A stretch of 64,000 nucleotides of DNA, taken from contig NZ_JAJKFV010000014.1 in assembly GCF_020966775.1 (NCBI RefSeq), forward strand, positions 1-64,000, in the 5' to 3' direction. Below, piece by piece: positions 505 through 50,065 of the stretch. Positions within the stretch are counted from its first letter, which is position 1. Each line of letters begins with the position of its first letter. The notes under the pieces were generated by a model that had not been told where the DNA came from, made no database searches, and saw only the letters and a program-made list of their open reading frames with translations. This DNA is from Rhodopirellula halodulae. GTDB taxonomy: Bacteria; Planctomycetota; Planctomycetia; Pirellulales; Pirellulaceae. The position numbers were made by a program, and so were the translations under genes.

Positions 505-525
505 GTAGGTCAGGCCGTGCCTGAC
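505..525 (+). repeat. GTAG-headed palindrome (REP-like), family A
   Basis: GTAG head, then a hairpin with stem halves GTCAGGC and GCCTGAC around CGT. It lies 36 bases after the transposase stop in the same sense. A related inverted copy is at 622-642. Confidence 0.7.
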
Positions 526-621
526 GATGGTGAAATGCCAGCCAATACCACCATCTCGACGAATCACAATCGCGGCGCGGAATCTTGGACGCCTCGCTTT
601 GTTCCGAAGCATCGGCCGGGG

Positions 622-642
622 CGTCAGGTGAGACCTGACCTA
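622..642 (-). repeat. GTAG-headed palindrome (REP-like), family A, inverted copy
   Basis: On the minus strand this is a GTAG head followed by stem halves GTCAGGT and ACCTGAC with a short loop. It lies about 110 bases after the stop of the minus-strand oxidoreductase and faces the copy at 505-525, so the two form an inverted pair about 100 bases apart. The 282 bases between the transposase and the oxidoreductase hold nothing else recognisable. Confidence 0.7.
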
Positions 643-750
643 CGGTTGGTTTGGAAAATGAAAACGCCCGCTGGTCGCGAAATGGCGACGAGCGGGCGTT
701 GTTCGTTTTGGCGGTGTTGCCGCCGGTCAGTTGTCGCTAGCTAACGAGGC

Positions 751-2175
751 TCAACCCAAACTCCAACCGTCGCGGTATTCGCGTTGGACGAATTCGTTGA
801 CGGATGAAACGTTCGGACTGCTCAGGTCCTTCGCATTCCATTCGATGCGTTGGCCTTCGCCCGCACGCATGGCCAAGTTGCCGACCAAGATCGTTTCGGT
901 CAGGCGGCCAGCGTAACCGAAGTTCGACATGGTTCCGGGCTCGTATTCGCCTTTGACCGTGCTGACAAATTCCCATTTGTGACGCTCGTCGCCACTGGCT
1001 TTGTGTGGGATGCGTGGCAGCCAAGGATCAGGCTTCTTGAAGTCGACGAATTTGTCTTCGGGAAGCAGGTAATACTTGGCACCGTAATCATCGGGCGAGA
1101 ACACCAAGCCTTTGCTGCCGACGATGACGGCACCGGATTGTTTGCGTCCACCGTCACGTTGAGCCTGAACGCGTTTTTGGAACGACGCGGGCAATTGCGA
1201 GATGATGCTTTCCGGTGGCAAGTTGCCTCCGTCGTACCAGTAGAACTTACAAGGTGGCAACGTCGCTCCGTTGGCACCTTCACGCTCGGGGAACTCAAAC
1301 ATCAGCGAGCTGCTGGCGGGGAATTGTTCGCCTTCCACGATGCCAGGATTCTTCACGGCGGTGACGGCGATGGGGTCCCACAGATGCAACGCCTTCACTG
1401 GCATGTTGGTGGTGTGACATGCCATGTCGCCGAGAGCTCCGGTGCCGAAGTCGACCCAACCACGCCAGTTGAACGAATGGTAGGCTCCTTTGACGAATGG
1501 ACGCATCGGTGCGGGACCGATCCATGCATCCCAGTTCAGCGAATCCGGCACGGGGTCTTCGCCTGACGGACGTCCACCACCCTGTGGCCACACGGGACGG
1601 TTGCTGAAGATGTGAATCTCAGTCACGTCGCCGATCGCACCGCTTTGGATGACTTCCACGGCTTCGCGAAGTCCGTCTTCGCTGGTGCCCTGGTTGCCCA
1701 TTTGAGTGACCACGCCGGTCTTCTCAGCGGTCTCACGCATCAAACGAGCTTCGCGAATCGACCATGTCATCGGTTTTTGGCAGTAGATGTGCTTGCCCAT
1801 GTTCATGGCTTTGACACAGGCCGCCGCGTGCGTGTGGTCGGGCGTGCTGCACGTCACGATGTCGACTTTGTCACCCAGCTTGTCCAACATTTCGCGGAAG
1901 TCGTCGAACTGCTCCGCGTCTTTGAATTCGCGTCCTTTCTTCGCCAGCGTGTCGCGATCGACATCGCACAGCGCGGCAATCTTCACGCCTTGGTTGGCGA
2001 TGTGACTGGTGTCGCTACCGCCTTTTCCGCCCACGCCGATGCAAGCGGCCGACAGGGCGTTCAATGCCGAAGGCGATTCTTCTTGAGCCAGGCTGGTCCC
2101 GGCGAAATAGCCGACGCCGGCAGTCAATGCTGCCGACTGGCCAATGAAACGACGACGATTGGTTTTCTGGGTCAT
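751..2175 (-). CDS. Tat-exported Gfo/Idh/MocA-family oxidoreductase
   Basis: A 474-residue NAD(P)-dependent dehydrogenase-like protein. The N terminus has a twin-arginine signal (N-R-R-R-F-I-G, then a hydrophobic Ala/Gly-rich stretch ending near A-Q-E-E), so it is probably exported folded with its cofactor. The Rossmann loop G-V-G-G-K-G is near residues 44-50. The usual E-K-P cofactor/substrate motif reads C-Q-K-P near residue 130, a variant common in the expanded planctomycete paralogues. The C-terminal alpha/beta domain has many Trp and Asp residues. ATG at 2175 was preferred to an upstream TTG at 2181. The substrate is unknown; the family oxidises sugars, inositols and sugar acids. It stands alone, followed by a REP-like hairpin. 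Confidence 0.88.
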   Translation of the reverse strand: MTQKTNRRRFIGQSAALTAGVGYFAGTSLAQEESPSALNALSAACIGVGGKGGSDTSHIANQGVKIAALCDVDRDTLAKKGREFKDAEQFDDFREMLDKLGDKVDIVTCSTPDHTHAAACVKAMNMGKHIYCQKPMTWSIREARLMRETAEKTGVVTQMGNQGTSEDGLREAVEVIQSGAIGDVTEIHIFSNRPVWPQGGGRPSGEDPVPDSLNWDAWIGPAPMRPFVKGAYHSFNWRGWVDFGTGALGDMACHTTNMPVKALHLWDPIAVTAVKNPGIVEGEQFPASSSLMFEFPEREGANGATLPPCKFYWYDGGNLPPESIISQLPASFQKRVQAQRDGGRKQSGAVIVGSKGLVFSPDDYGAKYYLLPEDKFVDFKKPDPWLPRIPHKASGDERHKWEFVSTVKGEYEPGTMSNFGYAGRLTETILVGNLAMRAGEGQRIEWNAKDLSSPNVSSVNEFVQREYRDGWSLG

Positions 2176-2364
2176 GGACAAAGAGTTCCGAGGGAATGGA
2201 AAGAGGTGGGCAAAGGAGGCGAGTCCCTCCGCGGATCCGCCAGCGAAATCTTTCTTAGACGGAAGCCGAGCGGGGAGGGGCGGCGAGCGGGATTATCCTT
2301 TCGCCGGAATGCCCAGATTACCATCTCCATAGAGGGCAGGCAATCTTTTGGATGACCGTCCGAA

Positions 2365-3069
2365 CCAGAAAACGGGCTCGCGGAAAATGCGAAAAGATCC
2401 CACCCGAGCGACCGCGACAATCGTCAGCCGCGGGCGTGTCAGACACCGCGAGCAATTATCCGCCGAATCGCAGCCACGTGGGTTGGCCACTCTTGGCCGA
2501 CAGAGAATCGCACGACGGGCAGAGCGTCCGGTGGAACCGGACCTACAGCACTGGTCGGACCAGAAAACGGGCTCGCGAAAAATGCGAAAAGATCCCACCC
2601 GAGCATCGCGACAATCGTCATTCGCGGGCGTGTCAGACACCGCGGGCAATCACCCGCCGAATCGCAGCCACGTGGGTTGGCCACTCCTGGCCGACAGAGA
2701 ATCGCACGACAGGCAGAGTGTCCGGTGGAACCGGTGATGGGCAGAGCGTCCGGTGGAACCGGACCTACAACGCTGGTCGGACCAGAAAACGGGCTCCCGG
2801 AAAATGCGAAAAGATCCCACCCGAGCGATCGCGACAACCGTCAGTCGCGGGCGTGTCAGACACCGCGGGCAATCACCCGCCGAATCGCAGCCACGTAAGT
2901 TGGCCACGCTTGGCCGACAGAGAATCGCACGACGGGCAGAGTGTCCGGTGGAACCGGTGATGGGCAGAGCGTCCGGTGGAACCGGACCTACAGCGAGGTA
3001 GGTTGGCCACTCTTGGCCGACTTTTGGTCATACAGCGGAGAACACGGCGTCCGGTGGAACCGGACCTAC
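2365..3069. repeat. Tandem composite repeat with two kinds of palindrome, about 196-222 bases per unit
   Basis: Three diverged copies of one unit begin with C-A-G-A-A-A-A-C-G-G at 2365, 2561 and 2783. Each unit carries a GTRG-headed hairpin with stem TTGGCCA and TGGCCGA (2478-2501, 2672-2695; head degenerated to GTAA at 2895-2918) and, in the opposite sense, a hairpin with stem GTCCGGT and ACCGGAC headed GTAG on the minus strand (2526-2546, 2748-2768, 2971-2991, and one more at 3049-3069). Headless copies lie at 2720-2734 and 2943-2957, and an extra TTGGCC hairpin at 2998-3021. The array fills the gap between the oxidoreductase and the phosphatase. Long open frames across it are by-products of the repetition. 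No gene is supported in 2176-3091. Confidence 0.85.
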
Positions 3070-3091
3070 CAATCGATCCGCGTGTTTTGTC

Positions 3092-3673
3092 TCAACGGGT
3101 TTCGATGAGCTGCCAGTTTCCGGCGTCGGTTTCGACTTTCCAAATTTCCGGCAGGGCTTCGTCTTTCAACTGACTCGCCACCAGCGATGCCAGGGGATCA
3201 GGAATGATGAACGCCACGACCTGATTTCGATTGCGACGCAAAATTCGACGCACGGCTTTGCCGACTCGAACCGCCGCCTCGTACAAAGGCTCGCCACCAG
3301 GAGGACAGGTCGACTCCGGCGTGTCACAGAGTTCGCGGTACAAGCGTGGCTGGTTGCGACGAATTTCCTCGATCAGCTTGCCGTGCCAAAGTCCATGATC
3401 CACGTTGCGGAATTCTTCCACGACTTTGGGACGCAGGTCTCGGCCTTCGGACAGCAACGTCGCTGTTTCGACAGCGGATTGGCAAGGCGCAGTGAAGATG
3501 CCGTTCAAACGAATTCCCGCCAGCTCACTCGCCAACGACTCCGCCTGATCACGACCACGAGAGCACAAGGGCATGTCCAAGTTGCCCTTCATGCGGCCTT
3601 GTTCGTCGAACGACGTGGCACCCGGACGAATCAGAACCACCTTTGAAACCGCTTTGGAACGCAGCGAAATCAT
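3092..3673 (-). CDS. Histidine-phosphatase-fold protein lacking both catalytic histidines
   Basis: A 193-residue protein of the phosphoglycerate-mutase/histidine-phosphatase superfamily by pattern: V-V-L-I-R-P-G-A-T-S-F at the N terminus, then a G-R-x-Q-A-E-x-L helix, a F-T-A-P-C-Q-S-A-x-E-T-A segment and a V-D-H-G-L-W-H-G segment. The invariant phospho-acceptor in R-H-G is Pro17 here (codon CCG, read directly), and the second active-site His-Gly is replaced by Pro158-Asp159. Ordinary phosphatase chemistry is therefore unlikely; a binding or regulatory role is inferred. The ATG at 3673 overlaps the rpe stop as ATGA, which decides the start over a longer open frame and implies translational coupling to rpe. 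A REP-like hairpin (3049-3069) follows the stop by 22 bases. Confidence 0.8.
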   Translation of the reverse strand: MISLRSKAVSKVVLIRPGATSFDEQGRMKGNLDMPLCSRGRDQAESLASELAGIRLNGIFTAPCQSAVETATLLSEGRDLRPKVVEEFRNVDHGLWHGKLIEEIRRNQPRLYRELCDTPESTCPPGGEPLYEAAVRVGKAVRRILRRNRNQVVAFIIPDPLASLVASQLKDEALPEIWKVETDAGNWQLIETR

Positions 3674-4377
3674 GTCTGGCCTCCTGCACCGGGGTGCGAT
3701 CCGTTCATCGCCAGCGTCAATTCGTTGATCGCCGTTTCGTAATCGTGCTGGCCGAAGATCGCCGATCCCACGACGAACAAGTCGCATCCGGCTTCGCGAG
3801 CGGCGCCGATCGTGTCGACTTTGATTCCGCCGTCGATTTCAAGCAGCAAATCCGGTTTGCGTTGCTTCAGACTCTTCAGTCGATCCAGTGCGACAGGATT
3901 GAACGACTGGCCGCCGAACCCAGCGTTGACGCTCATCACCAACACCATGTCCACGGCGTCCAAGCAGTCGTCCAGCTTGGCAAAATCCGTGTCGGTATTG
4001 ATCGCCACGCCGACACCCACGCCCAGGTCACGGATCTGGCCCGCCACTTCAACGCTGTCCTGGACGGCTTCCACATGAAAGGTCAACAAGTCCGCGCCGG
4101 CATCGACCATTGGTTTCGCATACGCCATGGGGTCGCTGATCATCAGATGAACATCCAAGGGCATGTTCGTATGACGACGCAAACCTTCCACGATCGGCAT
4201 GCCGTAGGTCAGGTTGGGCACGAAATGGCCATCCATCACGTCCAAGTGCAGCACCCGCGCTCCTGCGGCGGTGAGTTGTTCGACCTCGGATCGCAAATCA
4301 CCAAAGTCGCATTGCAAAAGGCTCGGCAAAATCGCCGGGCCCGCGGCACGGATGGAATCGAGCTTCGCTCGGCTCAT
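3670..4377 (-). CDS. rpe: Ribulose-phosphate 3-epimerase
   Basis: A 235-residue TIM-barrel enzyme that interconverts ribulose 5-phosphate and xylulose 5-phosphate in the cytosol (pentose phosphate pathway). Family signatures are present: P-A-I-L-P-S-L near residues 14-20, H-L-D-V-M-D-G-H-F-V-P-N (metal ligands His44 and Asp46), D-V-H-L-M-I near 75-80, S-V-N-A-G-F-G-G-Q-S-F, and E-I-D-G-G-I with the catalytic Asp. Length is normal. The gene is first in a two-gene unit with the degenerate phosphatase, joined by an ATGA overlap. The start M-S-R-A-K-L is the only ATG consistent with the family N terminus. Confidence 0.95.
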   Translation of the reverse strand: MSRAKLDSIRAAGPAILPSLLQCDFGDLRSEVEQLTAAGARVLHLDVMDGHFVPNLTYGMPIVEGLRRHTNMPLDVHLMISDPMAYAKPMVDAGADLLTFHVEAVQDSVEVAGQIRDLGVGVGVAINTDTDFAKLDDCLDAVDMVLVMSVNAGFGGQSFNPVALDRLKSLKQRKPDLLLEIDGGIKVDTIGAAREAGCDLFVVGSAIFGQHDYETAINELTLAMNGSHPGAGGQT

Positions 4378-4853
4378 ACAGTTGTCTCATCGGGGAATGG
4401 ATGCACCACGCGAATTTGGCTTCGCTGCGGGATAGCCTTCGCCAAAAAGCAAAAACTCGCCGCGTGATGCGGAACCACGGGAACGTTCTCACGCCGGTTT
4501 GACCAACTCAGCTGTGGAAACAACTGTTCGGCCAGCACCGCAATTCGCCATGTCGGCGGACTGTCCCAGACGCTGTGGTGTGACGCGATCCACGTGCCAA
4601 TTCAGCCGCCGCAAAACCATTCCAAACGGTTCCGGCGGTCCAACGCGACACGTGGAGGTGACGTCGATGGGGCAACAGATTGATCAAGTCGCTGGTGAAC
4701 TGTCAATCGCCGGCATTTGAGGACGCGATGGTCCAATCGCCACAATGGCGGCCCTCACCCGAAAAATCGAAATATCCAGCAATTGCTAGCAACTGTAACG
4801 GCGGGTTATCCCCCGCAAAATTTTGCCGTTGTGATTCAACTTTGCGTCTTGTC
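4378..4853. other. Intergenic region upstream of rpe, no gene seen
   Basis: About 475 bases between the rpe start and the heptamer repeat. Short open frames here show no family features, and no RNA gene, clear promoter boxes or long hairpin could be made out. Any promoter of rpe should lie here. Confidence 0.5.
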
Positions 4854-4951
4854 CTAGCTCCTAGCTCCTAGCTCCTAGCTCCTAGCTCCTAGCTCCTAGC
4901 TCCTAGCTCCTAGCTCCTAGCTCCTAGCTCCTAGCTCCTAGCTCCTAGCTC
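4854..4951. repeat. Perfect heptamer tandem repeat, 14 copies of CTAGCTC
   Basis: Fourteen uninterrupted 7-base units run from 4854 to 4951. Each unit contains the palindrome CTAG, so TAG recurs every seven bases on both strands and all six frames are closed. It is followed after four bases by a second heptamer array. The perfect identity suggests recent slippage expansion. Confidence 0.95.
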
Positions 4952-4955
4952 CTAG

Positions 4956-4996
4956 CCCTCAGCCCTCAGCCCTCAGCCCTCAGCCCTCAGCCCTCA
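4956..4996. repeat. Second heptamer tandem repeat, 5 copies of CCCTCAG plus a partial
   Basis: Five perfect units run from 4956 to 4990, then CCCTCA runs into an A-tract. Read on the minus strand each unit has TGA, again closing every frame. The array starts immediately after the terminator of the minus-strand secretin gene. Confidence 0.93.
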
Positions 4997-5041
4997 AAAA
5001 AAACGGCCGCCGTGATTCTTGCGAATCGCGGCGACCGTTTT
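4996..5041 (-). terminator. Rho-independent terminator of the secretin gene
   Basis: On the minus strand a 16-base stem (ACGGTCGCCGCGATTC pairing with GAATCACGGCGGCCGT, two mismatches of the G-U type) closes over a GCAA tetraloop and is followed by eight T. It lies about 135 bases after the secretin stop codon. This is the clearest intrinsic terminator in the window. Confidence 0.88.
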
Positions 5042-5174
5042 GTTGGATCAGCTTTTTAGCTTGTCTGCTCAGTGGCTCTGTCTATCCAAGAGTCCTGCTC
5101 GACATATCGATCGCGACCGCGACGCGGGAGAGCGGAAGGACGCTCTCCGGGTCTCTGGTCCGATCGATGGTCGA

Positions 5175-8100
5175 TCAACGCCCTGGATCAAATCCGGTCT
5201 GAGCAATCTCTTCTTCTTCCTGGATGATGATCCGTGGCGTGACCATCATCATCAGGCTGCTGGACTGACGACCAACCGCGGTGTTGCGGAACAATCGGCT
5301 GACGTAAGGGATCTTGCTCAAGAACGGCAGTCCGCGTTCGTTGCGGCCTTCGCTCATTCGCTTGATACCACCCAGAAGAATCGTGCCACCGTCTGGGACG
5401 CTGACGGTCGTGCTGACGTTCGTGAATGCGAACGTTGGCTGCTGGACCGTGGTACCTTGAACGATGCTTTCTTCTTCTTGCTCGTCTTCCTCGTCCACCA
5501 CACCGTCGCCGTTGGTGTCGACGTTGCGGTTACTGCTGTTACGAGTCGTCGAGTTTCCTTGGAAGGTGAACTCGTTGACTTCACCAATTTGGCTGAAGGT
5601 AGGGATCAAGGTCAGACGCACGAATCGTTTGTCTTCGCTGACCACACCCTGGACGTTCAGTCGGGTGCCCTCGTCCAAGACCACGATGACCGGTTGCTGA
5701 GCGACGGCGAAGTCACCCACCACGGGCACGATACTGGTCACGAATGGACGTTGGGTTTGGTCACTGATCGAAGCGATCTGTCCGTCGAACAAAGTCACTT
5801 TGGGTGCCTGCATCACGTTCGTGCGGCTGTCACCCTGAGCGGCTTGCAAGAAGAAGTAAGCTTCGATGTCGCTGAGGATCGCGAACCCGAGTGTCGAAAT
5901 CGCACCCGCGTCAGGAGCACCAAACGGTGCGACCACGCCGGAAACATTGTTGTCCAGTCGGATGTCGAGGTCGGCCGTTGGCGTTCCATCGGGATCCAAA
6001 CCGATCGTGACTTCGGGGCCACTGTCATCACCGGGCAAACCAGGTGCGTTGTCGTCGAACTGCAAGTCAAAGTCGACGCCGATCTGTTCGAAGAACGTGT
6101 CCGACAACGTGATGAAGCGGACTTCGATGGTGATTTGCAAGTTCTGCAGTCGTCGTAGCGATTCCAGCAAGTCCACGATTTGATCGTGCACGTCACTGGT
6201 CGTGCTAACCACCAACGACAGGTTCTGCGGATAAGGTGCCATCGTGCCGACGCCGCCGAGTGCTTCCCACGATTCAGGTTCGATCGTGGTTTGAATCAAC
6301 TGCATCAGTTGGCTGAAGTCAGCCATCGATTGACCACCCTGTGCACCAAAAGCGTTGGGCGATCCCAAACCGCCGGCCGTGGCAAATCCACCACCGGGGC
6401 TGTATTGGCCCAACATGTTCGGTTGCATCCCAGCGTTCGCGTTGTTCCCAGCGAACCCGGACAAACCAGACGCGGAAACGGGAACGACTTGAACGTCCGT
6501 TTGTGGATTGATCATTTGGTAGGCACTTCGCAGTGCCCCACGCAAACCTTCGTCGTAACCCGAGACGAAGTTTGGAATCGGCGTGACCAAGTCCGCGACG
6601 CGATAGGTACGCTGTTCGACCATCGTGCGGCGAGCTTCTTTGCTGGTCACGTTCAGCACTTCGTTGCCGATGACGTGAGTCAAATCCAAATCGCCCAAGA
6701 TGATGTTCAGAGCACTCTCGAGCGAGATCCGCGTGGAGATGTTCTGGCTGACCGGGGTCTCGCGATTCAAACGGATCGCGGCGAGCGCCCGGTTGTCGAT
6801 CACGATTGGAACACCGGTCACGGTTGACAGGTCGTCGAGCACGTCGCCGAGTGGTCGGTTGTTGTATTTGACTTCCACTTCGGTCGCGAGTCGTCGTTTG
6901 ATCTCTTGCTCGCGTGGTGACAGGCTGCTCTCGGCACCACTGCTTAGACGTCGGCGAGACAGCTCTTCCCACGAACGAATCTCGGGGAAGGAGAACGGAC
7001 GATCCGGATCCGGTGGGACCGCGGCACGACCGATCGCCAACATTTCGCGAACGAAGCCGTCTTCGCTGCCAGCTTGAATCTCCTCATCCATTTGGATGCG
7101 AACACCCATCCGGCTGCTGTGGAACATGCTTTGTGCGATGGGCGAACCGGGTTTCAGCTCACCGACTTGCTTGGCGATCACTTCGGCTTCGTGGAAGCGA
7201 CGATCGTCCATCAAGTCATTGAAGGTCTCGACCAGTGACGAAATTTCATCGTCCAGTCGAGCTTCCTTGGCAGCATCGTTTGCCATTTCGGTGCGAACGG
7301 CTTCGTTGGCCAAGTCCAATTCGATCTCGGCGCGATGCTGTTCGACGTAGGTTTTCTGATCCGTCAAAGCACGGTCGACCATGGCAGCGAGCGATGCTTT
7401 GGAGGCTTCGTCAATCGAAGCTCCCTCAACACGTCGACGCAAACGTTCGAGATCGTCCACGGCGTCCATCGGCGCGTTGGTACGTTTCTCGTTCGCCTTG
7501 GAAAGTTCCGTGGTGACTTCGCGGTACAAGCGACGGGTTTGTTGTTGTGCTTCGAGTTCCGCTTTGTCCATCGCGGTCATCGGTTGCCCGGCGGCCGGCG
7601 AAGGCAAACGCGAAGGCTGCAACAACGTCAATTTGTCTTTCAAGGCTCGACGCGTTTCGGTGTCCAACTCGGACTCGAACGTCCAAGCCTTCACAAACGC
7701 TTGGCGAGCTTCGGTCTTCTTGCCTTGCGACAACAAGTCCATGCCTTCACGGTACAAACGATCGCCGTCGGAGTTGCCTCCGCCCAGTGGCGACGTCGCT
7801 TGCACTTGGCTCACACCACCGGGAAGCGTGCTCGCTCCGCCGGCTTGTTGAACGAAGCCCGTTCCGGCTGCGGCGGTGCCGCTGGTTTGCATGATTGGAT
7901 TGGCGGGCTGTTTCGCCAACGCGTTCAAGTCCAATCCGGTGCGACGTGCGGCGGCTTGCGCGTCCAACAGCAATTGCCATGGACGAGCATCGCCGGCTTG
8001 GAATTCATGTTCTTTCACGCCCAAGGTTTGAGCCTGGTTGGCCAGTTGGTAGGCGGTCTTCACATCGCCCTTGTCCAGAGCGGCGCGACCGGCGGCCACC

Positions 8101-8366
8101 AACTTCAACGTTTCCGTCCGACGAACCGCCAAGGGTTTCGCGGCGGAGGCCGGAGTCGATGCCGCGGGCGTTTTGGCTGCGGTGTCGCTTGGGGGCAATG
8201 TGAATTGTGCGGACGCCTCGGGAGCGGCCATCACGGTCGACAGCATCGAAGCCATCGACAACGACAACAACGAACGAGTGACCTTGCGACGCCATCGAGT
8301 TTCCGGCGCTGACGTGGGCGATGCCTTCTCAGGTTCGCTGGTCGACGCGGTCAACGATTGACCCAA
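5175..8366 (-). CDS. Large secretin (type II/III secretion or pilus outer-membrane channel family)
   Basis: A protein of about 1060 residues with a basic-hydrophobic signal sequence (R-W-R-R-K-V-T-R-S-L-L, cleavage near A-S-A-Q-F), an Ala/Gln-rich helical N-terminal half with tetratricopeptide-like segments, a short secretin N0/STN-like module (V-E-V-K-Y-N-N-R-P-L-G-D-V-L-D-D-L), and a C-terminal secretin barrel. The barrel has the hallmark V-x-V-P-D-G-G-T-I-L-L-G-G segment, then L-P-F-L-S-K-I-P-Y-V-S-R-L-F and M-M-V-T-P-R-I-I. It should form an outer-membrane multimer. No other secretion genes are adjacent. The start is uncertain: TTG at 8366 follows AAGGA at close spacing; TTG at 8354 or an open frame reaching 8651 are alternatives. 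A strong terminator follows. Confidence 0.85.
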   Translation of the reverse strand: MGQSLTASTSEPEKASPTSAPETRWRRKVTRSLLSLSMASMLSTVMAAPEASAQFTLPPSDTAAKTPAASTPASAAKPLAVRRTETLKLVAAGRAALDKGDVKTAYQLANQAQTLGVKEHEFQAGDARPWQLLLDAQAAARRTGLDLNALAKQPANPIMQTSGTAAAGTGFVQQAGGASTLPGGVSQVQATSPLGGGNSDGDRLYREGMDLLSQGKKTEARQAFVKAWTFESELDTETRRALKDKLTLLQPSRLPSPAAGQPMTAMDKAELEAQQQTRRLYREVTTELSKANEKRTNAPMDAVDDLERLRRRVEGASIDEASKASLAAMVDRALTDQKTYVEQHRAEIELDLANEAVRTEMANDAAKEARLDDEISSLVETFNDLMDDRRFHEAEVIAKQVGELKPGSPIAQSMFHSSRMGVRIQMDEEIQAGSEDGFVREMLAIGRAAVPPDPDRPFSFPEIRSWEELSRRRLSSGAESSLSPREQEIKRRLATEVEVKYNNRPLGDVLDDLSTVTGVPIVIDNRALAAIRLNRETPVSQNISTRISLESALNIILGDLDLTHVIGNEVLNVTSKEARRTMVEQRTYRVADLVTPIPNFVSGYDEGLRGALRSAYQMINPQTDVQVVPVSASGLSGFAGNNANAGMQPNMLGQYSPGGGFATAGGLGSPNAFGAQGGQSMADFSQLMQLIQTTIEPESWEALGGVGTMAPYPQNLSLVVSTTSDVHDQIVDLLESLRRLQNLQITIEVRFITLSDTFFEQIGVDFDLQFDDNAPGLPGDDSGPEVTIGLDPDGTPTADLDIRLDNNVSGVVAPFGAPDAGAISTLGFAILSDIEAYFFLQAAQGDSRTNVMQAPKVTLFDGQIASISDQTQRPFVTSIVPVVGDFAVAQQPVIVVLDEGTRLNVQGVVSEDKRFVRLTLIPTFSQIGEVNEFTFQGNSTTRNSSNRNVDTNGDGVVDEEDEQEEESIVQGTTVQQPTFAFTNVSTTVSVPDGGTILLGGIKRMSEGRNERGLPFLSKIPYVSRLFRNTAVGRQSSSLMMMVTPRIIIQEEEEIAQTGFDPGR

Positions 8367-8716
8367 TTCATCCTTGATCCGTCCCGCAGGACACGACCGG
8401 TTCCGCCGGGGCGGATGATACGAGCGGTTCAACGCGACTCTCCTTCTTCGCGTGAGACATGAAATCCATAAAGTGCCGGAAAGCTCTCGCCCAGACTCAC
8501 CCAAGGCGGACTGGTTGTCGGCCGGGAACGCTTGCAGCATCCCGCGTTTCGAACTGGTCTCGTGGATAGAATCCCCCGTCCTGGGAAAATTCACCCAATG
8601 AGTCAGCACGAAAACCTTCCTAGCGAGGTTGGCAATACGATTTGCGGACAACCAGTGTCAACACGGCTTTGAGAGAACCAAACGGATTTTTGTCAAGCGG
8701 AAAACAAGCCCACTGC
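8367..8716. other. Divergent intergenic region between secretin and DNA ligase
   Basis: About 350 bases between two divergently read genes. The secretin frame stays open leftward through it, so part may be coding if that start lies upstream. No RNA gene or convincing promoter was recognised; promoters of both genes are expected here. Confidence 0.4.
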
Positions 8717-10417
8717 ATGAAACTCTTCGCGGAACTTTTTCGACGACTCGATCAAACGACCAAAACGAATGAAAAGGTCGCCGCGATCGCTGCGTACATG
8801 TCGGCGGCGGCACCCGAGGACGCCGGGTGGGCAATCGCCGCACTCAGCGGGAGACGCGTCAAACGCTTGGTTTCGACGGGTTTGCTGCGTCGACTGGCTG
8901 CTGAACAGGCCGGCGTCCCCGATTGGTTGTTCGAGGAATCGTACGACGCCGTCGGCGATCTGGCGGAGACCATCACGCTGCTCGTGCCCGCAGGAAACTC
9001 GTCCGCTGCGGATTCCCGCAGTTTGTCAGAATGGATGCATGAAAAAGTTCTGCCGCTGTCCCGCATGGACGAATCGCAGCAATCCGACGCCGTCCGACAA
9101 ATGTGGGCGGAAACGCGAGGCACCTCGCGGTTGATCCTGATGAAATTGATCACCGGAGCATTTCGGGTCGGCGTCAGTTCGCGTTTGGTCGCTCGCGGGA
9201 TCGCCGAATCCAATGGGTTGCCGGCGGACGTGATCGCTCACCGGTTGATGGGCGATTGGTCCCCCACGCCCGAGTTTGTGCAGAAACTCCATTCGCCTGA
9301 TCTGGACGATGCCCTGCACAGCCGGCCTTATCCATTTTGTCTCGCGCACGCCCTCGCGGACGATGCGAATGAAACGGGCGACGCACCGGATTGGTCTGCC
9401 TTGGGTGATCCGGCGGACTACCAAGCGGATTGGAAATGGGACGGAATTCGCGGACAGGTCATCCGCCGTGCGGGACGGACCTACATCTGGTCTCGTGGCG
9501 AAGACCTGATGGTGGATCGCTGGCCGGAGATCGAACGTGCTGCGGAGTTTCTGCCGGACGGCACGGTGCTGGACGGGGAAATTTTGGCGAGCCGATTCGC
9601 AACCACGGATGCGTCGAGTCCATCGATCGAGGTTCTGCCGTTCGCCCAGCTCCAACGTCGCATCGGACGCAAAACCGTCGGCAAGAAACTGCTCACCGAA
9701 GTTCCCGTCATGTTCCACGCGTTTGACTGCATCGAAGCGAACGGGCTGGATCTGCGTGAGCAACCTCTGTTCGAGCGTCGCGAACAACTGCAATCGATCC
9801 TGGCGAAGCATCAACCTCCCAGCATGGTTTGGAACGAACCACTTTCGTTTTCCAGTTGGCAGGGACTTGCCGACCTTCGTTCGCAAAGCCGTGATGTGCT
9901 GGCCGAAGGCGTGATGATCAAGCGGCTGGACGCGCCGTACAGCGTCGGTCGCACACGAGGCGTGTGGTGGAAATGGAAACTCGCACCGCACACGGTCGAC
10001 GCGGTGTTGATCTATGCTCAGCGAGGCCATGGCAAACGGGCGAGTCTCTACACGGACTACACCTTCGCAGTTTGGGATGGCGACAAACTGGTTCCATTCG
10101 CGAAAGCCTACAGCGGTTTGACCGACGCCGAAATTCAGAAGGTCGACCGCTTTGTTCGTGACAACACGTCGGAGCGTTTTGGACCGGTGCGAAGTGTTCA
10201 ACCCGAGTTGGTGATGGAACTGGCTTTTGAGGGATTGCAACGCAGCACGCGGCACAAGTCCGGCATCGCGACTCGTTTTCCCCGCATTGTTCGTTGGCGA
10301 ACGGACAAGAAACCCGAGGACGCGGATCGCTTGTCTGATCTACTCGCCATGCTGCCTGATCCCGAGCCCAAATCAATCTCGGTCAAAAATGAATCGGCTT
10401 CGCCACGAAACATTTGA
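8717..10417 (+). CDS. ATP-dependent DNA ligase (LigB/LigC-type, damage-response clade)
   Basis: A 566-residue ligase that seals nicks using ATP. The N-terminal helical domain covers roughly residues 1-200; the adenylation domain begins with the nucleotidyl-lysine motif K240-W-D-G-I-R-G. Later motifs include a D-G-E-I-L segment, A-E-G-V-M-I-K-R near residues 395-405 and V-W-W-K-W-K. The OB-fold domain ends near V-M-E-L-A-F-E-G and R-F-P-R-I-V-R-W-R, typical of the clade described as cisplatin-damage-response ligase. The family is usually clustered with an Lhr-type helicase, an MBL-fold exonuclease and the PdeM nuclease; here only the helicase is nearby. ATG at 8717 gives M-K-L-F-A-E-L and was chosen over the open frame from 8642. 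Confidence 0.92.
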   Translation: MKLFAELFRRLDQTTKTNEKVAAIAAYMSAAAPEDAGWAIAALSGRRVKRLVSTGLLRRLAAEQAGVPDWLFEESYDAVGDLAETITLLVPAGNSSAADSRSLSEWMHEKVLPLSRMDESQQSDAVRQMWAETRGTSRLILMKLITGAFRVGVSSRLVARGIAESNGLPADVIAHRLMGDWSPTPEFVQKLHSPDLDDALHSRPYPFCLAHALADDANETGDAPDWSALGDPADYQADWKWDGIRGQVIRRAGRTYIWSRGEDLMVDRWPEIERAAEFLPDGTVLDGEILASRFATTDASSPSIEVLPFAQLQRRIGRKTVGKKLLTEVPVMFHAFDCIEANGLDLREQPLFERREQLQSILAKHQPPSMVWNEPLSFSSWQGLADLRSQSRDVLAEGVMIKRLDAPYSVGRTRGVWWKWKLAPHTVDAVLIYAQRGHGKRASLYTDYTFAVWDGDKLVPFAKAYSGLTDAEIQKVDRFVRDNTSERFGPVRSVQPELVMELAFEGLQRSTRHKSGIATRFPRIVRWRTDKKPEDADRLSDLLAMLPDPEPKSISVKNESASPRNI

Positions 10418-10455
10418 GACAAATGTTCTACACTTGTCGAACTCGTCAACGGCCC

Positions 10456-10479
10456 GTAATGCAGCCTGCCAGGCTGCAT
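10456..10479 (+). repeat. GTAA-headed perfect palindrome
   Basis: GTA followed by ATGCAGCCTG, a central C and the exact inverse CAGGCTGCAT: a perfect 10-base stem. It starts 38 bases after the ligase stop in the same sense, in a convergent gap. A second small hairpin (CTGG/CCAG) lies near 10568-10579. It may act as a terminator although no T-run follows. Confidence 0.75.
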
Positions 10480-10619
10480 CCTGCCCGTTCACCACCAACG
10501 CAATCTTCAATACCGACGCATTGCATTCAATTCGTGGTTGAATGGCGTTGCCAAGGTGGCGGAACCGGCTGGCAGCCAGTGCCGCGTGGTGACTTCGCAA
10601 CGTGTCGACTGGCTAGCGT

Positions 10620-11648
10620 TCATTTTCGCCCGAGCATTCGGTCCAGCGAATCCGAGGTTTGATAGATCAACGCTTCCGGATAGTGTGCGTACGGATGGAA
10701 ATACTCGAAGGTCAAATAGCCGTCGTATCCGATGCCGTCAAACGCTTCCAACACGGCGGGCCAATTCGTGGTTCCATCCAGCAAGGGGCGAAACGCTTCC
10801 AACGAGTGATCGCTTCCCTTCTTGGTGTACTCCTTCAAGTGCACGTTCTGGATTCGATCACCCAAGATCGGGATCCAGTGTTCGGGGAACTGATACTCCA
10901 TGATGTTTCCTGTGTCGAAATGAACGCGAACGTGCTCGCTGTCAAAGCTGTCCACAAATTCTGCCATCTCCATCGGTGACATCAGGAAACCGTTGAAGAA
11001 GATGTTCTCCATATTCATCTTCACACCCAGCTTTTCCGCCTCGGGCAACAACTTGCCGATCGCTTCTCGAGCCCGAGCGTCACACACATCGTTGGGTGTC
11101 GGATCATGGTCTTCACGCCACGGCATGTGCACGGCACCGGGAACCACCAGCAAATTTTCCGTCCCCAAGTCATGGGCGGCTCGCGTCATTTTGCTGGCCA
11201 GTTCCATCCCGCGGGAACGTTCCGCCGGATCGTTGCTGGTCAGCGGATAAGGCCAAAACAAAAACGAACAAACGCCGCTGATCGCGATTCCGATTTCGTC
11301 CGCCATCTTGCGGATTTCGGTGAACTCCTTCGTTCCCGATTTCGGTGACAAATCGCTGTCTAAGTCATAGTTCAGCTCGATGCCGTCGAATCCAGCATCC
11401 TTGGCCATTTGCAAGCATTGCTTCAGCGACATCTTGTCCGGGTATGGAAACGCCCACAAATTGATCGACTTTTTGAAGTCATACTTTGGCCGGTCTTGGC
11501 TCAAAGTTTGCAACTCATTCGCCGGAGAGGCCCCCGTTTTCCCCGCCGCGATCGCACCGGACAATGCCGCTCCACCAAAGGCCGCATAGCTCAGCCATTC
11601 TCGGCGATCCACGGACGATTGCGACTTGGATGAATGATGGTTTCCCAT
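10620..11648 (-). CDS. Sugar-phosphate isomerase/epimerase-like TIM-barrel protein, exported
   Basis: A 342-residue protein with an N-terminal export signal containing D-R-R-E-W-L and a Gly/Ala-rich hydrophobic stretch (Tat-like). The rest resembles xylose-isomerase-like TIM barrels (hydroxypyruvate isomerase, IolE and relatives): G-F-D-G-I-E-L-N-Y-D, N-M-E-N-I-F metal-binding strand, V-H-F-D-T-G-N-I and N-V-H-L-K-E-Y, which supply the Glu/Asp/His metal ligands of the fold. The substrate cannot be told. ATG at 11648 has GGAG eight bases upstream. It sits in reverse orientation between the ligase and its partner helicase, an insertion into what is normally one gene group. The C terminus (F-E-Y-F-H-P-Y) is complete. 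Confidence 0.85.
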   Translation of the reverse strand: MGNHHSSKSQSSVDRREWLSYAAFGGAALSGAIAAGKTGASPANELQTLSQDRPKYDFKKSINLWAFPYPDKMSLKQCLQMAKDAGFDGIELNYDLDSDLSPKSGTKEFTEIRKMADEIGIAISGVCSFLFWPYPLTSNDPAERSRGMELASKMTRAAHDLGTENLLVVPGAVHMPWREDHDPTPNDVCDARAREAIGKLLPEAEKLGVKMNMENIFFNGFLMSPMEMAEFVDSFDSEHVRVHFDTGNIMEYQFPEHWIPILGDRIQNVHLKEYTKKGSDHSLEAFRPLLDGTTNWPAVLEAFDGIGYDGYLTFEYFHPYAHYPEALIYQTSDSLDRMLGRK

Positions 11649-11786
11649 GGAAGCGGCTCCTGGATCGACGTTGGGGATGATGGAGGATGTTCCCTAGCCT
11701 AACCCAACGCACGACACCGCAGTGGACATTGCCACGTCGCAACACTCCATTGCGTATGTCATGTCTTACATGGCGGCGCAAAAGGC

Positions 11787-11810
11787 GTCGGCCAAGAGTG
11801 GCCAACCTAC
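11787..11810 (-). repeat. GTAG-headed palindrome of the TTGGCC family
   Basis: On the minus strand GTAG is followed by a hairpin TTGGCCA...TGGCCGA, the same as the element at 2998-3021. It is in the divergent gap between the isomerase-like gene and the helicase. The rest of the gap (11826-11917) is a striking pyrimidine-rich leader of repeated CTC/CTT triplets directly before the helicase ATG, without a Shine-Dalgarno site. Confidence 0.75.
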
Positions 11811-11917
11811 GAAGCATTGAGCCGCCACCAGCATCACTGACGTTCCTCCGCCCTCCACACTCAGTCCTCTCTTCTCAGCCCTTCTCCCTTACTCCTTCTC
11901 CCTCACTCCTCCTCTTC

Positions 11918-14398: not shown

Positions 14399-14655
14399 TC
14401 GGCCGTGGCGTTGATCGCATTTGCTACCGATCGCCTCGGCGGGGTGCACGCCGTTTTGTCCCATGCAGCGGTGCCGTATGGGGCCTTCAGCAAAAGCTTG
14501 GCGAAGTGAACCGAAAACGTGCCAGAATTGTCATGCAAACGCGGGCGTTGCAGTGGCGAGTCGGACGGGGCGGGATTCCTCATTCTACCCTTTCACCAGC
14601 TTGGGCATCTCGTCACAATGCCGGCAACTTCTGACCTTTGAATTGGCCAAACGAC

Positions 14656-16356
14656 GTGAACGCTCCCGAAAAATCCGACTCGGCGACCCCAGAAAAAACT
14701 CCGTCCAAGCACTTCATTCGACAAGCCATCGATGAGGATTTGGCCAGCGGTCGATTCGATGGCGTCGCGACGCGTTTCCCGCCCGAACCCAACGGGTACC
14801 TGCACATCGGACACGCGAAAAGCATTTGTCTGAACTTCGGTTTGGCTCGCGAAATGGGTGGCACGTGCAACCTTCGTTTCGACGACACCAACCCGATCAA
14901 AGAAGACACCGAGTACGTCGATTCCATCCAAGACGATGTGCGATGGTTGGGATTTCAGTGGGACAACCTGCATTTCGCCAGCGACTACTTTGATCAACTT
15001 TACGAGTGGGCCGAACAACTCATTCGTGACGGCAAAGCGTATGTCTGCGATCTGACCGCCGAGGAAACTCGCGAGTACCGTGGGACGCTCACCGAACCGG
15101 GCAAAAACTCGCCTCATCGCGATCGCACGCCGGAGGAGAACCTCGAACTGTTCCGAGCCATGAAGGCGGGCAAGTTCAAAGATGGCGAGAAAACGCTGCG
15201 AGCCAAAATCGACATGGCGGCTCCCAACATCAATCTTCGCGACCCGGTGATGTACCGAATCGCTCACGTGCCTCATCACCGCACGGGCGATAAGTGGTGC
15301 ATTTACCCGATGTACGACTGGGCTCACGGACAATCGGATTCGCTGGAGAAAATCACGTTCTCGATTTGCACGTTGGAATTTGAACACCATCGCCCGCTGT
15401 ACAACTGGTACTGCGAAAGCCTGAACATTCATCATCCACGACAAATCGAATTCGCTCGTTTGAACATGACCTACACCGTCATGAGCAAACGCAAGTTGCT
15501 GCAACTGGTCAAAGAGAACCACGTGTCGGGATGGGACGACCCTCGCATGCCAACATTGGTCGGTTTGCGACGTCGTGGTTACACGCCCGAATCCATTCGA
15601 GCGTTCTGCGCTGATATCGGCGTGGCCAAATTCAACAGCACGATCGACGTCATCCGCCTGGAAAACGCCGTTCGCGAACATCTCAACGCGGTCGCACCGC
15701 GACGCATGGCGGTCCTGGATCCGATCAAGCTGACCATCACCAACTGGCCCGAAGGCAAAGTCGAGATGATGTCGGCGATCAACAATCCAGAAGACGAATC
15801 CGCCGGCAGTCGCGAGATCCCTTTCAGTGGCGAACTGTTCATCGAAAGCGATGACTTCCGCGAAGAGGCTCCTCGCAAGTTCTTCCGCTTGAAAAAGGGC
15901 GGAGCGGTTCGCCTGCGTTCCGGTTACATCGTTGATTGTCACGACGTCGTGAAAGACGCCGACGGCAATATCACCGAAGTCCTCTGCACCTACGACCCGG
16001 AAACCAAATCCGGCGAAGACACCTCGGGCCGCAAAGTCAAAGGCACAATCCATTGGGTCAGCCGCGAACATGCGAAACAAGTCACCGTTCGCAACTACGA
16101 CCGACTCTTCAAAGTTGAGAACCCAGACGCCAGTTCCGACACAGGATCGTTCTTGGATCACTTGAACCCGGATTCTCTGACGACGCTGACTGCGTACGTC
16201 GAACCGGAATTGACCAACGTAAGCGCCGGCGACCGAGTCCAGTTCGAACGTTTGGGGTATTACGTCGTGGATCCAGACACAACGACCGACGAAGTTGTCT
16301 ACAACCGCATCGTTCCGTTGCGGGACACATGGGGCAAAATCGCCGCCAAGTCATGA
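14656..16356 (+). CDS. glnS: Glutamine--tRNA ligase
   Basis: A class I aminoacyl-tRNA synthetase that charges tRNA-Gln in the cytosol. The N terminus has [14 protein letters not shown] (HIGH at residues 50-53), the KMSKS equivalent reads V-M-S-K-R-K, and the anticodon-binding beta-barrel domain follows, ending with the usual P-L-R-D-T-W region. Length (566 residues) is normal for bacterial GlnS. GTG at 14656 gives M-N-A-P-E-K; a TTG at 14638 is an alternative. Having GlnS means Gln-tRNA need not come from transamidation. A GTAG palindrome follows the stop by 12 bases. A long open frame on the opposite strand is a composition shadow. Confidence 0.96.
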
Positions 16357-16367
16357 ACCAAAATCCC

Positions 16368-16392
16368 GTAGCTGAATTCGTCAAGAATTCAG
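16368..16392 (+). repeat. GTAG-headed palindrome, GAATTC family
   Basis: GTAG then CTGAATTC, loop GTCAA, and GAATTCAG: a perfect 8-base stem. It begins 12 bases after the glnS stop in the same sense, between convergent glnS and polX. It could serve as a 3'-end hairpin for glnS. Confidence 0.75.
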
Positions 16393-16435
16393 AAACACGA
16401 CAACAAACCCGCCACGAATCCCAAACCAATCGCGT

Positions 16436-38423: not shown

Positions 38424-38467
38424 GGGGACAAATTCTCGTGAGAGGGATGAACGAGCCGTTCGGTTTT

Positions 38468-42603: not shown

Positions 42604-42636
42604 GTGCCGGCCATCGCATCCAGGTTGGTCAATCAT

Positions 42637-45705: not shown

Positions 45706-45733
45706 CTCGAGTCTGACTGCACTTGAGTCCTAC
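45706..45733 (-). repeat. GTAG-headed imperfect hairpin
   Basis: On the minus strand GTAGGA, then CTCAAGT and ACTCGAG (one mismatch) around an eight-base loop. It lies 44 bases after the stop of the sulfatase at 45777, in the same sense. Weaker than the other GTAG elements. Nothing else is seen in the 230-base gap. Confidence 0.5.
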
Positions 45734-45776
45734 CAAAAAAGGAGGCAGCATCCTTTGTCGGATGGTGAACGCGTGC

Positions 45777-47303: not shown

Positions 47304-47738
47304 GTCCGCCTGGTGCATTTCGTTCTTCGCTCGAGGTAAGTCTGGACGGCGACAACTTCGTCGTTGCAAGCTCATCAAATGGATTGACTCCACGCTAAAC
47401 GTTGGCCGAGGCACGAGCAAGCAAATGCCGGTGGACCGCACGCACCGAAGTGAAATCGTCCGCGTGTTGGACGATTCGCTGACGCAAGCGGCACTTCGGC
47501 TGCCGTATTTTCTCGCTGTGTTGTCGCAAGTGATTGGTGTCATCTGCGCAAGCACTTTGTCTGGGTTGTTTTGGCCCGGAAGTGTTTTAACGCAGATCGT
47601 TTTCAAGCTTCCTCGGGATGGTTCACCCACCACCGCCCTTTGTTATGCTCTCGGGGAGGCATCGCTTTTCAAATCGTCAAGACGACGCCTGGCTTCGCCG
47701 TCTCCCCACAATCCCCGCTTTCCATCACGAGTTGCACG
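47304..47738. other. Divergent control region between sulfatase and fucI
   Basis: About 435 bases. Both flanking frames extend into it, but neither extension carries family features. No operator palindrome or riboswitch could be recognised. It should hold the promoters of both the sulfatase run and fucI, so a shared fucose-responsive control is possible but not shown. Confidence 0.4.
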
Positions 47739-49550
47739 TTGAGTCATTCCGCACCCTCCCCCAGCGTTTGGACTGGTGACTTTCCCAAGATTGGTATTCG
47801 CCCCACGATCGATGGACGTCTGGGCGGCGTTCGTGAATCCTTGGAAGATCAAACGATGGGATTGGCGAAACGCGTCGCCGAGTTGATTCAGTCAGAAGTC
47901 CGTTATCCAAACGGAGAACCGGTGGAGTGCGTGATTGCTGACACTTGCATTGGCGGCGTCGCGGAAGCCACGGCTTGCGAGTCGAAGTTCCGCCGTGAGA
48001 ACGTCGGTGTGTCACTGACGGTAACACCATGTTGGTGCTACGGGTCGGAAACGATGGACATGGATCCAATTCGTCCCAAAGCCGTCTTCGGTTTCAACGG
48101 GACGGAACGACCGGGGGCGGTTTACTTGGCCGCTGTGTTGGCGGGGCACACTCAGAAAGGCATTCCCGCCTTTGGCATCTACGGACGCGATGTCCAGGAT
48201 TCCGGCGACGCAAGCATGCCGGCGGACGTGCAGGCGAAACTGCTTGATTTCGCGAGATGCGGATTGGCCGCAGCGTTGATGCAAGGCAAGTCGTATCTGT
48301 CGATGGGCGGAACCTCAATGGGGATTGCGGGCTCGATGGTGGACTATGCCTTCTGGGAAAAGTGGCTGGGCATGCGCGTCGAAGACATCGACATGAGCGA
48401 ATTCGCCGGCCGCATGAAACGTGGGCAGTACGATGCGGAGGAATTTGAACGAGCGATGTCTTGGGTGAAGGAGAATTGTCCCGAAGGCGAAGACTACAAC
48501 ACGGAGTCCGCCAAACGGTCCCGCGAACAACTGGACCAAGAGTGGTCGGACTGTGTGAAGATGACTTTGATCGCTCGTGACTTGATGGTTGGCAATCCGA
48601 AGCTCGCCGAGATGGGACTGAAGGAACAATCCCAGGGACACAATGCGGTTGCGGCGGGATTTCAAGGTCAACGTCAATGGACGGACCATTTTCCCAATGG
48701 CGACTTCATGGAGGCGATCCTCAACACGTCGTTCGATTGGAATGGCAATCGTGCGCCGTACGTCGTTGCGACCGAAAACGACGCTCTGAACGGAGCGACC
48801 ATGTTGTTCGGTCATTTGCTGACCAACACGGCCCAAATTTTCGCGGACTTGCGGACCTATTGGAGCCCGGAAGCGGTCGCGAAAACTTGCGACGGGTACA
48901 AGCTTGAAGGAGCCGCCAGTGACGGTCTGTTGCACCTGATCAATTCGGGCCCCGCAACGTTGGATGGAACGGGGCAGCAAGCCGACTCGGACGGAGTGCC
49001 GACGATGAAGCCGCACTGGAACATCACGGATGAGGAAGTCCAGCGATGTTTGCAGGCCACCACCTGGCATCCGTCGATGACCGAGTACTTTCCGGGCGGA
49101 GGCATGAGCACGCGGTACCGCACGCAGGGCGGCATGCCATCGACCATGACGCGAATCAATTTGGTGGACGGATTGGGGCCCGCCTTGCAAATCGCGGAAG
49201 GCTATACCGTGGATTTGCCTGAGTCCGTGCATGACACGTTGGACCAGCGTACCAATCCAACTTGGCCAACGACCTGGTTCGCTCCCAAATTGACCGGCCG
49301 CGGTGCGTTCACGTCGACTTATGAAGTCATGAACCATTGGGGGTCGAACCACTGCGTTTTGACCGCCGGTCATGTGGGCAACCTTTTCATAACGCTAGCG
49401 TCGATTCTTCGCATTCCGGTTTACATGCACAACGTCGATGAGGCTCGCGTGTTCCGTCCGAGTGTGTGGAACGCGTTCGGAACCGACGATTTGGAATCGG
49501 CCGATTTCCGAGCCTGTCAGAATTTTGGTCCGTTGTACGGACGCCGTTGA
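47739..49550 (+). CDS. fucI: L-fucose isomerase
   Basis: A 603-residue aldose-ketose isomerase converting L-fucose to L-fuculose in the cytosol, the first step of fucose catabolism. It begins at TTG 47739, followed soon by [12 protein letters not shown], the standard FucI N terminus. Residues corresponding to the E. coli metal/catalytic set are Glu346 (T-E-N-D), Asp370 (F-A-D-L-R) and His538 (S-N-H-C). Length and C terminus ([13 protein letters not shown]) are typical. It may also take D-arabinose. No fuculokinase or aldolase is in the window. Gene context of sulfatases and fucosidases supports fucose as substrate. A GTAG hairpin follows by 18 bases. Confidence 0.93.
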
Positions 49551-49568
49551 TTCGATTTTCAAACTCAA

Positions 49569-50065
49569 GTAGGTCCGGTTCCACCGGACTTTTTCTTTTG
49601 GCGTCGTCGAGCAACGTTGTTTGTGGAGGGCGTGTGCGTTGGTGCTCGGCGTTCGCTGGGGTGGTTTGTGGGAACCGCGGCTAACGCCGATCGGCTGTTT
49701 GTTTGGTTGGGACGGGGTGTTGTTTCTGTAGGTCCGGTTCCACCGGACGTTTGCTTTCGGCGTCGTCGAGCGGCGTTATTTGGGGAGGACCTCTGCGTTG
49801 GTGCTCGGCGTGCGCCGGGGTGGTATGTGGGAACCGCGGCTAACGCCGATCGGCTGTTTGGTTGGTTGGGATGCGGCGTTGGTTCTGTAGGTCCGGTTCC
49901 ACCGGACGTTTGCTTTCGGCGTCGTCGAGCGGCGTTATTTGGGGAGGACCTCTGCGTTGGTGCTCGGCGTTCGCCGGGTGGTTCGTGGGAACCGCGGCTA
50001 ACGCCGAACGGCTGTTTGGTTGGTTGGGATGCGGCGTTGTTTCCGTAGGTCCGGTTCCACCGGAC
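49569..50065 (+). repeat. Four GTAG-headed palindromes in tandem, 159-base period
   Basis: Four identical hairpins (head GTAG, stem GTCCGGT and ACCGGAC around TCC) lie at 49569-49589, 49728-49748, 49887-49907 and 50045-50065, spaced 159, 159 and 158 bases. The sequence between them is also repeated with few changes, including a G-rich stretch and the string GGGAACCGCGGCTAACGCCG. The array begins 18 bases after fucI, in its sense. The hairpin is the same as in the 2365-3069 cluster. Long open frames across the array on both strands are by-products. No gene is supported in 49551-50235. Confidence 0.92.

Follow-up and report, generated by a model that had tools for sequence, protein, structure and literature searches.

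Several families of GTAG-tagged REP elements in Rhodopirellula halodulae, the majority linked to their own transposase lineages

Elements of the window and their common head

The window analyzed in this work comprises the initial 64 kb of C14, a contig in the 6.6-Mb genome of Rhodopirellula halodulae (G000). The comparison set comprised 13 genomes of the genus, i.e., R. halodulae and 12 congeners (G001-G012), and L numbers designate individual sequence stretches or loci. The genes named previously fit their Pfam matches: a DDE_3 transposase, an ATP-dependent DNA ligase, a class I Glu/Gln-tRNA synthetase (glnS), a histidine phosphatase, a sulfatase, and a fucose isomerase (fucI). Hairpins reported in the earlier note at 505, 3069, 10456, 16368, and 49569-50045, as well as the TTGGCCA sites, were all found (Table 1). 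Four single copies said to follow closely on stop codons (505, 10456, 16368, and 3069) were measured at 12-39 bases from them, and the fucI copy at 19 instead of 18 bases. Two elements were added to that list, namely 643- (GTCAGGT) and 10431- (GTAG-AACATTTG).

Table 1. Coordinates of the elements of the window and of the REP-flanked RAYTs of R. halodulae
Feature	Position	Strand	Structure or REP type	Remarks
Whole REPIN	505..643 (139 bp)		inverted pair, heads outward	
Left REP of REPIN	505-525	+	GTAG GTCAGGC cgt GCCTGAC	37 bases after stop (468)
Right REP of REPIN	623-643	-	GTAG GTCAGGT ctc ACCTGAC	
Array	2478..3069	+ and -	TTGGCCA hairpins (+: 2478, 2672, 2895, 2998), GTCCGGT REPs (-: 2546, 2768, 2991, 3069)	three units, spacings 194 and 223 bp
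TTGGCCA hairpin heads	2478+, 2672+, 2895+, 2998+, 11810-		GTGG, GTGG, GTAA, GTAG, GTAG (in this order)	
GTCCGGT REP	3049..3069	-	GTAG GTCCGGT tcc ACCGGAC	23 bases from histidine phosphatase stop (3092)
AACNNTTG-type REP	10409..10431	-	GTAG AACATTTG tct CAAATGTT	overlaps ligase stop codon
Hairpin	10456..10478	+	GTAA TGCAGCCT gcc AGGCTGCA	39 bases after stop (10417)
TTGGCCA-group hairpin	11787..11810	-	GTAG GTTGGCCA ctct TGGCCGAC	
gtcaa-type REP	16368..16392	+	GTAG CTGAATTC gtcaa GAATTCAG	12 bases after stop (16356); type of C16:46931 RAYT
Four REPs behind fucI	49569..50065 (49569, 49728, 49887, 50045)	+	GTAG GTCCGGT tcc ACCGGAC	tandem units of ~159 bp; 49569 is 19 bases after stop (49550), followed by TTTTTCTTTT, T tail present
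RAYT	C29:576761		CACGGCGG-tccc	
RAYT	C9:257469		CATCACAC-tcc	
RAYT	C16:46931		CGAAAGTC-gtcaa/gttga	
RAYT	C2:347699		TGGACTTC-gcca	
RAYT	C14:145172-145625		GTCAGGC/GTCAGGT	

An unpaired GTRG head stands directly 5' of a short stem-loop in the window elements, although 10456 has GTAA, and this arrangement is lacking at 45733. The latter, listed previously as a REP-like hairpin on the minus strand, gives only an imperfect, long-looped hairpin (-7.0 kcal/mol) and fits none of the families identified; it was therefore rejected as a REP. A search of a plasmid collection gave no match to window positions 49540-50240. Elsewhere in the window (4852-5000), a heptamer tandem repeat TCCTAGC grades into CCCTCAGC-like units.

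The head was analyzed in 864 kb of R. halodulae DNA (the window and 40 evenly spaced 20-kb stretches), where 403 perfect hairpins (stem of at least 7, loop of 2-6) provided 806 flanking 4-mers. GTAG occurred directly 5' of these hairpins 39 times, with 1.1 expected, and this 34-fold enrichment was the highest among 4-mers seen at least five times, followed by GAGG (12.8-fold) and CTTT (11.5-fold). The GAGG/CTTT hairpins were rejected as a second tagged family, since 27 of the 29 GAGG hairpins (ending in AAAG) belong to one CRISPR-like array. This array (L009:13539-15520, contig C29, at about 113.5-115.5 kb) holds 27 copies of CCGCGCTTCGATGAGCGCGG, mostly 71-74 bases apart. When the head was left free, GTAG was recorded in 20/24 AACNNTTG, 24/36 CNCGGNGG, and 61/63 gtcaa elements, with G at head positions 1 and 4 in 98-100% of them. 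For the GTCMGG pattern it was recorded in 130/270, a count that says little because this palindromic pattern matches both strands. The head is strongly conserved, but conservation extends to individual positions of the flanks: AACNNTTG elements have an A at one of them in 95% of cases, and CNCGGNGG elements have C (97%) and T (77%) immediately preceding the head, and A (86%) following the stem.

The copies are numerous, dispersed, and intergenic, as is characteristic of REPs. With up to 3 mismatches, GTAGGTCCGGTTCCACCGGAC had 155 sites in R. halodulae and none in the reversed-pattern control. Within the genus (R. halodulae, then G001-G012 in order), the numbers of sites were 178,0,4,6,1,0,0,1,0,0,0,0,0 for GTAGGTCNGG, 22,14,18,29,20,0,87,4,0,2,0,0,93 for GTAGAACANTTG, 25,0,36,45,24,0,2,0,0,0,0,0,2 for GTAGCNCGGNGG, and 62,1,18,8,3,0,64,12,6,0,1,2,114 for the gtcaa type, the reversed control being 0 in each case; the copy number of the main family differs about 30-fold or more between congeners. 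TTGGCCA was present in 21 copies in the sampled R. halodulae DNA, 17 of them with the GTAG head. In an order-wide search, GTAGGTCNGG was found in 10 of 296 genomes (R. halodulae included), with more than 9 sites in R. halodulae alone; single sites may be due to chance, since the reversed control also gave 1-2 sites in 8 of the 296 genomes. The notion that the hairpins arose by chance, their division into several unrelated families being a reading artefact, fits 45733. It can be practically dismissed as a whole, as the head enrichment, the exact repeated copies, and the empty reversed controls of R. halodulae and of the genus refute it for all the other listed elements.

REP families and their RAYTs

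The earlier note supposed that the parallel families might each have a RAYT of their own. Five RAYTs flanked by GTAG hairpins were identified in R. halodulae, each with its own REP type (GTCAGGY, CNCGGNGG, CATCACAC, gtcaa, and gcca). The PF01797 profile pointed to 8 places, of which two were REP-flanked (C29:576761 and C9:257469), while C16 was obtained with a RAYT query, C2:347699 by RAYT alignment, and C14:145172-145625 with NCBIfam NF047646. The HUH motifs of the five proteins read MPNHVH, MPDHIH, MPDHLH, or LPDHLH. Concerning matches to Y1_Tnp (Pfam) or REP_Tyr_transpos (NCBIfam), the NCBIfam cut-off was passed by the C14 protein alone and the Pfam cut-off by those of C9 and C29; PHROGs gave nothing useful for two RAYTs.

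Flanking hairpins were then read at 40 RAYT loci (4 of R. halodulae and 36 of the 12 congeners), and they were assignable to a type at 23 of them, the other 17 being without assignable REPs. Genus matches listed as stronger than about 1e-10 numbered 38, and all except G010:C8 lie in the stretches retrieved; weaker ones were covered where they belonged to a set of 30 loci. A tree was built for 28 RAYTs, i.e., the 23 labelled loci and five more, with 15 REP labels assigned by the analyst, nine of them single rows. On this tree the labels require 14 changes, which is the minimum possible, and none of 200 shuffles was as low; clade and REP type therefore agree without conflict among the 28 labelled RAYTs of the genus. 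Support was high (100/99-100) for CACGGCGG, CCGACTGAG, and AACAKTTG, and moderate for gcca (92/88), GYCAGG (91/82), and gtcaa (67/69). The label gtcaa includes L124 (gccaa and gcgga loops) and the label CACGGCGG includes GTGG-headed copies (L094), whereas rows L089, L105, and L111 each rest on one hairpin of their type. The tree excludes the 17 loci without assigned REPs, of which L100 and L109 bear unlabelled GTAA, GTTG, or GTGG hairpins, and warnings issued with the tree concerned long branches (those of L093 and L095, and the one joining the two deepest groups) as well as the shortness of the R. halodulae C14 row.

Most of the GTAG-hairpin families in this genome are hence associated with a particular transposase lineage each, and the supposed pairing stands in general, but not for every family. 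No RAYT of the AACNNTTG clade (22 sites in R. halodulae) was found among the matches listed in R. halodulae, G002, G003, and G006, and REPs of this type flank RAYTs in congeners only (loci L101, L112, and L118; genomes G001, G004, and G012). Likewise, no RAYT of the CNCGGNGG clade was found among the matches listed in G003 and G004. Congener RAYTs without assigned REPs were considered as a source for such families and rejected: none of the 19 proteins compared had its best match within the clade of AACNNTTG or that of CACGGCGG, although for one fragment (73 aa, G007) the scores were nearly equal. The 10456+ hairpin can be assigned weakly at best, by its resemblance to GTAG tGCAGGCT gct upstream of a G009 RAYT (L111).

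Three further loci were noted. L114 (G007:C12) contains a tandem pair of RAYT frames of 287 aa at a distance of 864 bases, and both are enclosed by REPs of the GGCACA type, which has the look of a duplicated REPtron. In L118 (G001:C144), a RAYT lies beside a 71-aa RAYT fragment with AACNNTTG REPs around both, an arrangement that can be read as a partial tandem duplication. In R. halodulae (L001:2010-2131, contig C29, about 2174.6 kb), two inverted-order hairpins GTAG CTCGGGGC ggaa GCCCCGAG follow an IS200-like gene that is interrupted by a TAA in frame.

The second departure from the supposed pairing is the RAYT of the main lineage (C14:145172), located on the contig of the window, about 81 kb beyond it. 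It is split by a frameshift into two frames (2125-2535 and 2225-2734 of L125), the products of which show 46-70% (piece 1) and 47-80% (piece 2) identity to one-frame relatives in congeners. It is flanked on both sides by GTCAGGC/GTCAGGT REPs, and its second frame terminates at the TAG within the head of the downstream REP. Genes of this lineage in G002, G004, and G006 are flanked by GCCAGGT (in G002 and G004 also by GCCATGT), and no flanking REP was recognized beside that of G008; three of the four are in one open frame. A neighboring RAYT lineage in G005 has GGCCGGT REPs. As the flanks of the C14 lineage vary by congener (GTCAGGY, GCCAGGT, GCCATGT), its stem drifts and the head is retained, which corresponds to the orthoswitch of Nunvar et al. 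(PMC3686654).

The REPIN at 505-643 aligns with three REPINs beside the C14:145172 RAYT, which it resembles in anatomy and sequence; by this comparison it represents a whole REPIN of this RAYT lineage, putatively mobile as a unit. GTCCGGT most likely belongs to the same lineage, because its stem length, loop length, and head are equal and it is paired with GTCAGGT/GTCGGGT in some arrays, and TTGGCCA may belong to it as well; no copy of either was found flanking any RAYT in R. halodulae or at the congener loci. There are, thus, several families, as described earlier, but GTCAGGC, GTCAGGT, and GTCCGGT, which most likely form one lineage, had been split too finely. Among the sampled GTCCGGT elements 102/110 are identical over 21 nt, and they form 45 clusters, three of which also contain GTCAGGY. 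It is conceivable, if rather doubtful, that this near-uniform class spread recently although only one RAYT of its lineage was found in the genome, a frameshifted gene with REPs of a different class on its flanks; in such a case another RAYT might act in trans, or short arrays might multiply and spread without a dedicated RAYT.

Genomic position, arrays, and comparable slots

The position of REPs was analyzed in the R. halodulae stretches retrieved, where four families contributed 270 elements. Most of these stretches were chosen for their REP content, and their genes were called by a codon-score script and not by a standard gene finder. The elements formed 120 clusters (41 same-strand arrays, 46 singles, and 33 mixed), of which 10 at stretch ends were dropped. 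The remaining 110 were located in 54 convergent, 49 unidirectional, and 7 divergent gaps, compared with 12.9%, 58.5%, and 28.7% of random intergenic points, respectively; 54 of the 103 convergent and unidirectional clusters were within 60 bases of a stop codon, vs. 21% of the random points. Of the 15 GTAG-hairpin clusters in the unchosen 864 kb, 6 were convergent and 8 were unidirectional, one of the latter lying inside a called gene; the remaining cluster was at a stretch end, and none was divergent. The placement behind genes claimed earlier is therefore well founded. Elements nearest to a stop (up to 60 bases) were sense in 46 and antisense in 8 cases (31 vs. 8 without mixed-strand clusters), a bias partly due to inverted-pair geometry; in unidirectional gaps at any distance it was weak (21 sense vs. 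11 antisense). Four clusters have a head whose TAG itself serves as stop codon.

Three slots could be compared between species. Behind glnS, where R. halodulae has one gtcaa REP, G003 has two REPs, G012 three, G004 two and one degenerate by eye, and G002 one and one degenerate by eye; those of the four congeners have gcca or acca loops and units of 37-41 bases. REPs are thus present in 5/13 genomes, with the gcca type in 4/12 congeners. G006 has a longer GTAG hairpin of another type (CCGGGGGT, 16-base loop), no GTAG-headed hairpin was found within 200 bases behind glnS in G001, G005, G007, G008, G009, and G011, and in G010 just 75 bases remain before the contig end. At the ligase locus, the nearest relative with a name is R. 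europaea 6C (protein identity of 84%), which carries CCGACCGA-type hairpins there vs. AACATTTG and TGCAGCCT of the window; they form a small array (L175:11776-11875, heads GTAG on the plus and GTAA on the minus strand) and resemble REPs of the CCGACTGAG type, which accompany RAYTs in G002, G003, and G009. At the 505 slot, R. europaea 6C has a GCCAGGT REPIN in place of GTCAGGC/T. The finding of different REP types across species in all three comparable slots fits permissive landing sites. R. europaea 6C was rejected as an empty-site partner, given the REPs of other stems at 505 and behind the ligase and a gap too poorly alignable at 2348-3099 (about 750 bases in the window and about 230 bases, without the array, in R. 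europaea 6C).

The earlier note also proposed that the REPs double as 3'-end structures, of which only the position holds. An alternative in the same vein is that the hairpins are rho-independent terminators or RNA 3'-end stabilizers kept for that role, their common head being incidental. The clustering within 60 bases of stops, the T tail of the fucI copy, and the recurrence of hairpins behind glnS, including the longer one of G006, are in agreement with it. However, T-rich tails follow just 18 of the 270 elements (6.7%, vs. 3.9% at any position), with 49569 as an exception of terminator type. A terminator scan of window positions 1-17000 gave 19 hits vs. 23.2 in shuffles, i.e., no excess, and Rfam gave no match anywhere in the window. 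REPs as terminators in general were rejected on the few tails and the lack of excess. Furthermore, the head is strongly enriched and conserved, the RAYT association holds family by family, the main family varies widely in copy number, and six congeners lack the hairpin behind glnS, all of which makes this alternative improbable.

Arrays were frequent: 32 of the 45 GTCCGGT clusters in the sampled DNA have at least two elements, with spacings that vary by locus (30-32, 114-115, 158-159, 167-168, 224, and 488-489 bp). Hybrid arrays with two REP families per unit were observed in L127:1597-2144 (G003), L042:12204-12915, and window 2478-3069; in one example, GTCAGGT (-) and CTCGGTGG (+) recur five times at 127-128 bp. 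We consider it an even question whether GTCCGGT arrays grow by recombination or replication slippage, a transposase being needed only for founding insertions. The multi-element clusters with their locus-specific spacings, the hybrid units, and the glnS slot (1, 2, 2, 3, and 3 copies in five genomes, some degenerate) speak for such growth, but dispersal is still needed to account for 45 separate clusters.

Interpretation and comparison with known systems

Taken together, the elements are very probably GTAG-tagged REPs, occurring as singles, inverted pairs (REPINs), and tandem arrays in several parallel families. Each family would be copied, now or formerly, by its own RAYT, a single-strand HUH/Y1 transposase presumably recognizing the GTAG head and the family hairpin. 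RAYT clade and stem/loop type diverge together. Copies are located mainly in convergent and unidirectional gaps behind stops, usually with the GTAG strand sense to the upstream gene, the most likely reason being that insertions are least damaging at such sites, and the same slots hold different families in different species. Further copies may be added by tandem duplication, probably through recombination, and families appear to outlast the loss or breakage of their RAYT. REPINs are reportedly also the subject of Bertels and Rainey 2011 (PMC3116915).

This is mobile DNA of a known kind with published precedent elsewhere, newly mapped in the Rhodopirellula group. Judging by titles, the literature searched for Rhodopirellula and planctomycete REPs and RAYTs showed nothing on these families beyond PMC3733652 and PMC6006769, the latter of which classifies the transposases. 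Multiple coexisting GTAG REP families and many tyrosine transposase genes were reported in R. baltica (Di Nocera et al. 2013, PMC3733652). The elements described here resemble that GTAG superfamily in the head, stems of mostly 6-9 bp, the short loop, several families per genome, tandem or paired copies, a location downstream of ORFs, and the use of TAG from the head as a stop codon. The genus-wide pairing of RAYTs and REPs and the broken RAYT were worked out in the present analysis.

REPINs are inverted REP pairs with heads outward that flank RAYTs (PMC8049555), and such pairs occur beside RAYTs here too, whereas same-strand arrays and single copies are also common here. For TnpA-REP (REPtron), the GTAG head is described as recognition and guide sequence, and the DNA is cut at a CT on the 5' or 3' side of the REP (PMC8266576). 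Similarly, CT stands directly before the head in 27/36 CNCGGNGG elements, while the other families mostly have CC, GA, or mixed dinucleotides, unlike TnpA-REP. A head-guided cleavage rule (GTGG head with a CC site) was rejected, since 0/11 GTGG copies of CNCGGNGG have CC and 6/11 have CT.

A parallel is provided by the orthogroups of Pseudomonas and Stenotrophomonas (Nunvar et al. 2013, PMC3686654), where orthologous RAYTs have drifting REP classes (termed orthoswitch), some RAYTs are frameshifted, and REPs are abundant without a cognate RAYT. The present case differs in belonging to another phylum and in that the RAYT of the lineage is flanked by a class other than the most uniform and abundant one. 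Several REP/RAYT lineages exist side by side in one genus, the members of which kept, lost, or broke single RAYTs, and this makes the survival of REPs without a transposase testable outside Pseudomonas, Stenotrophomonas, and enterobacteria.
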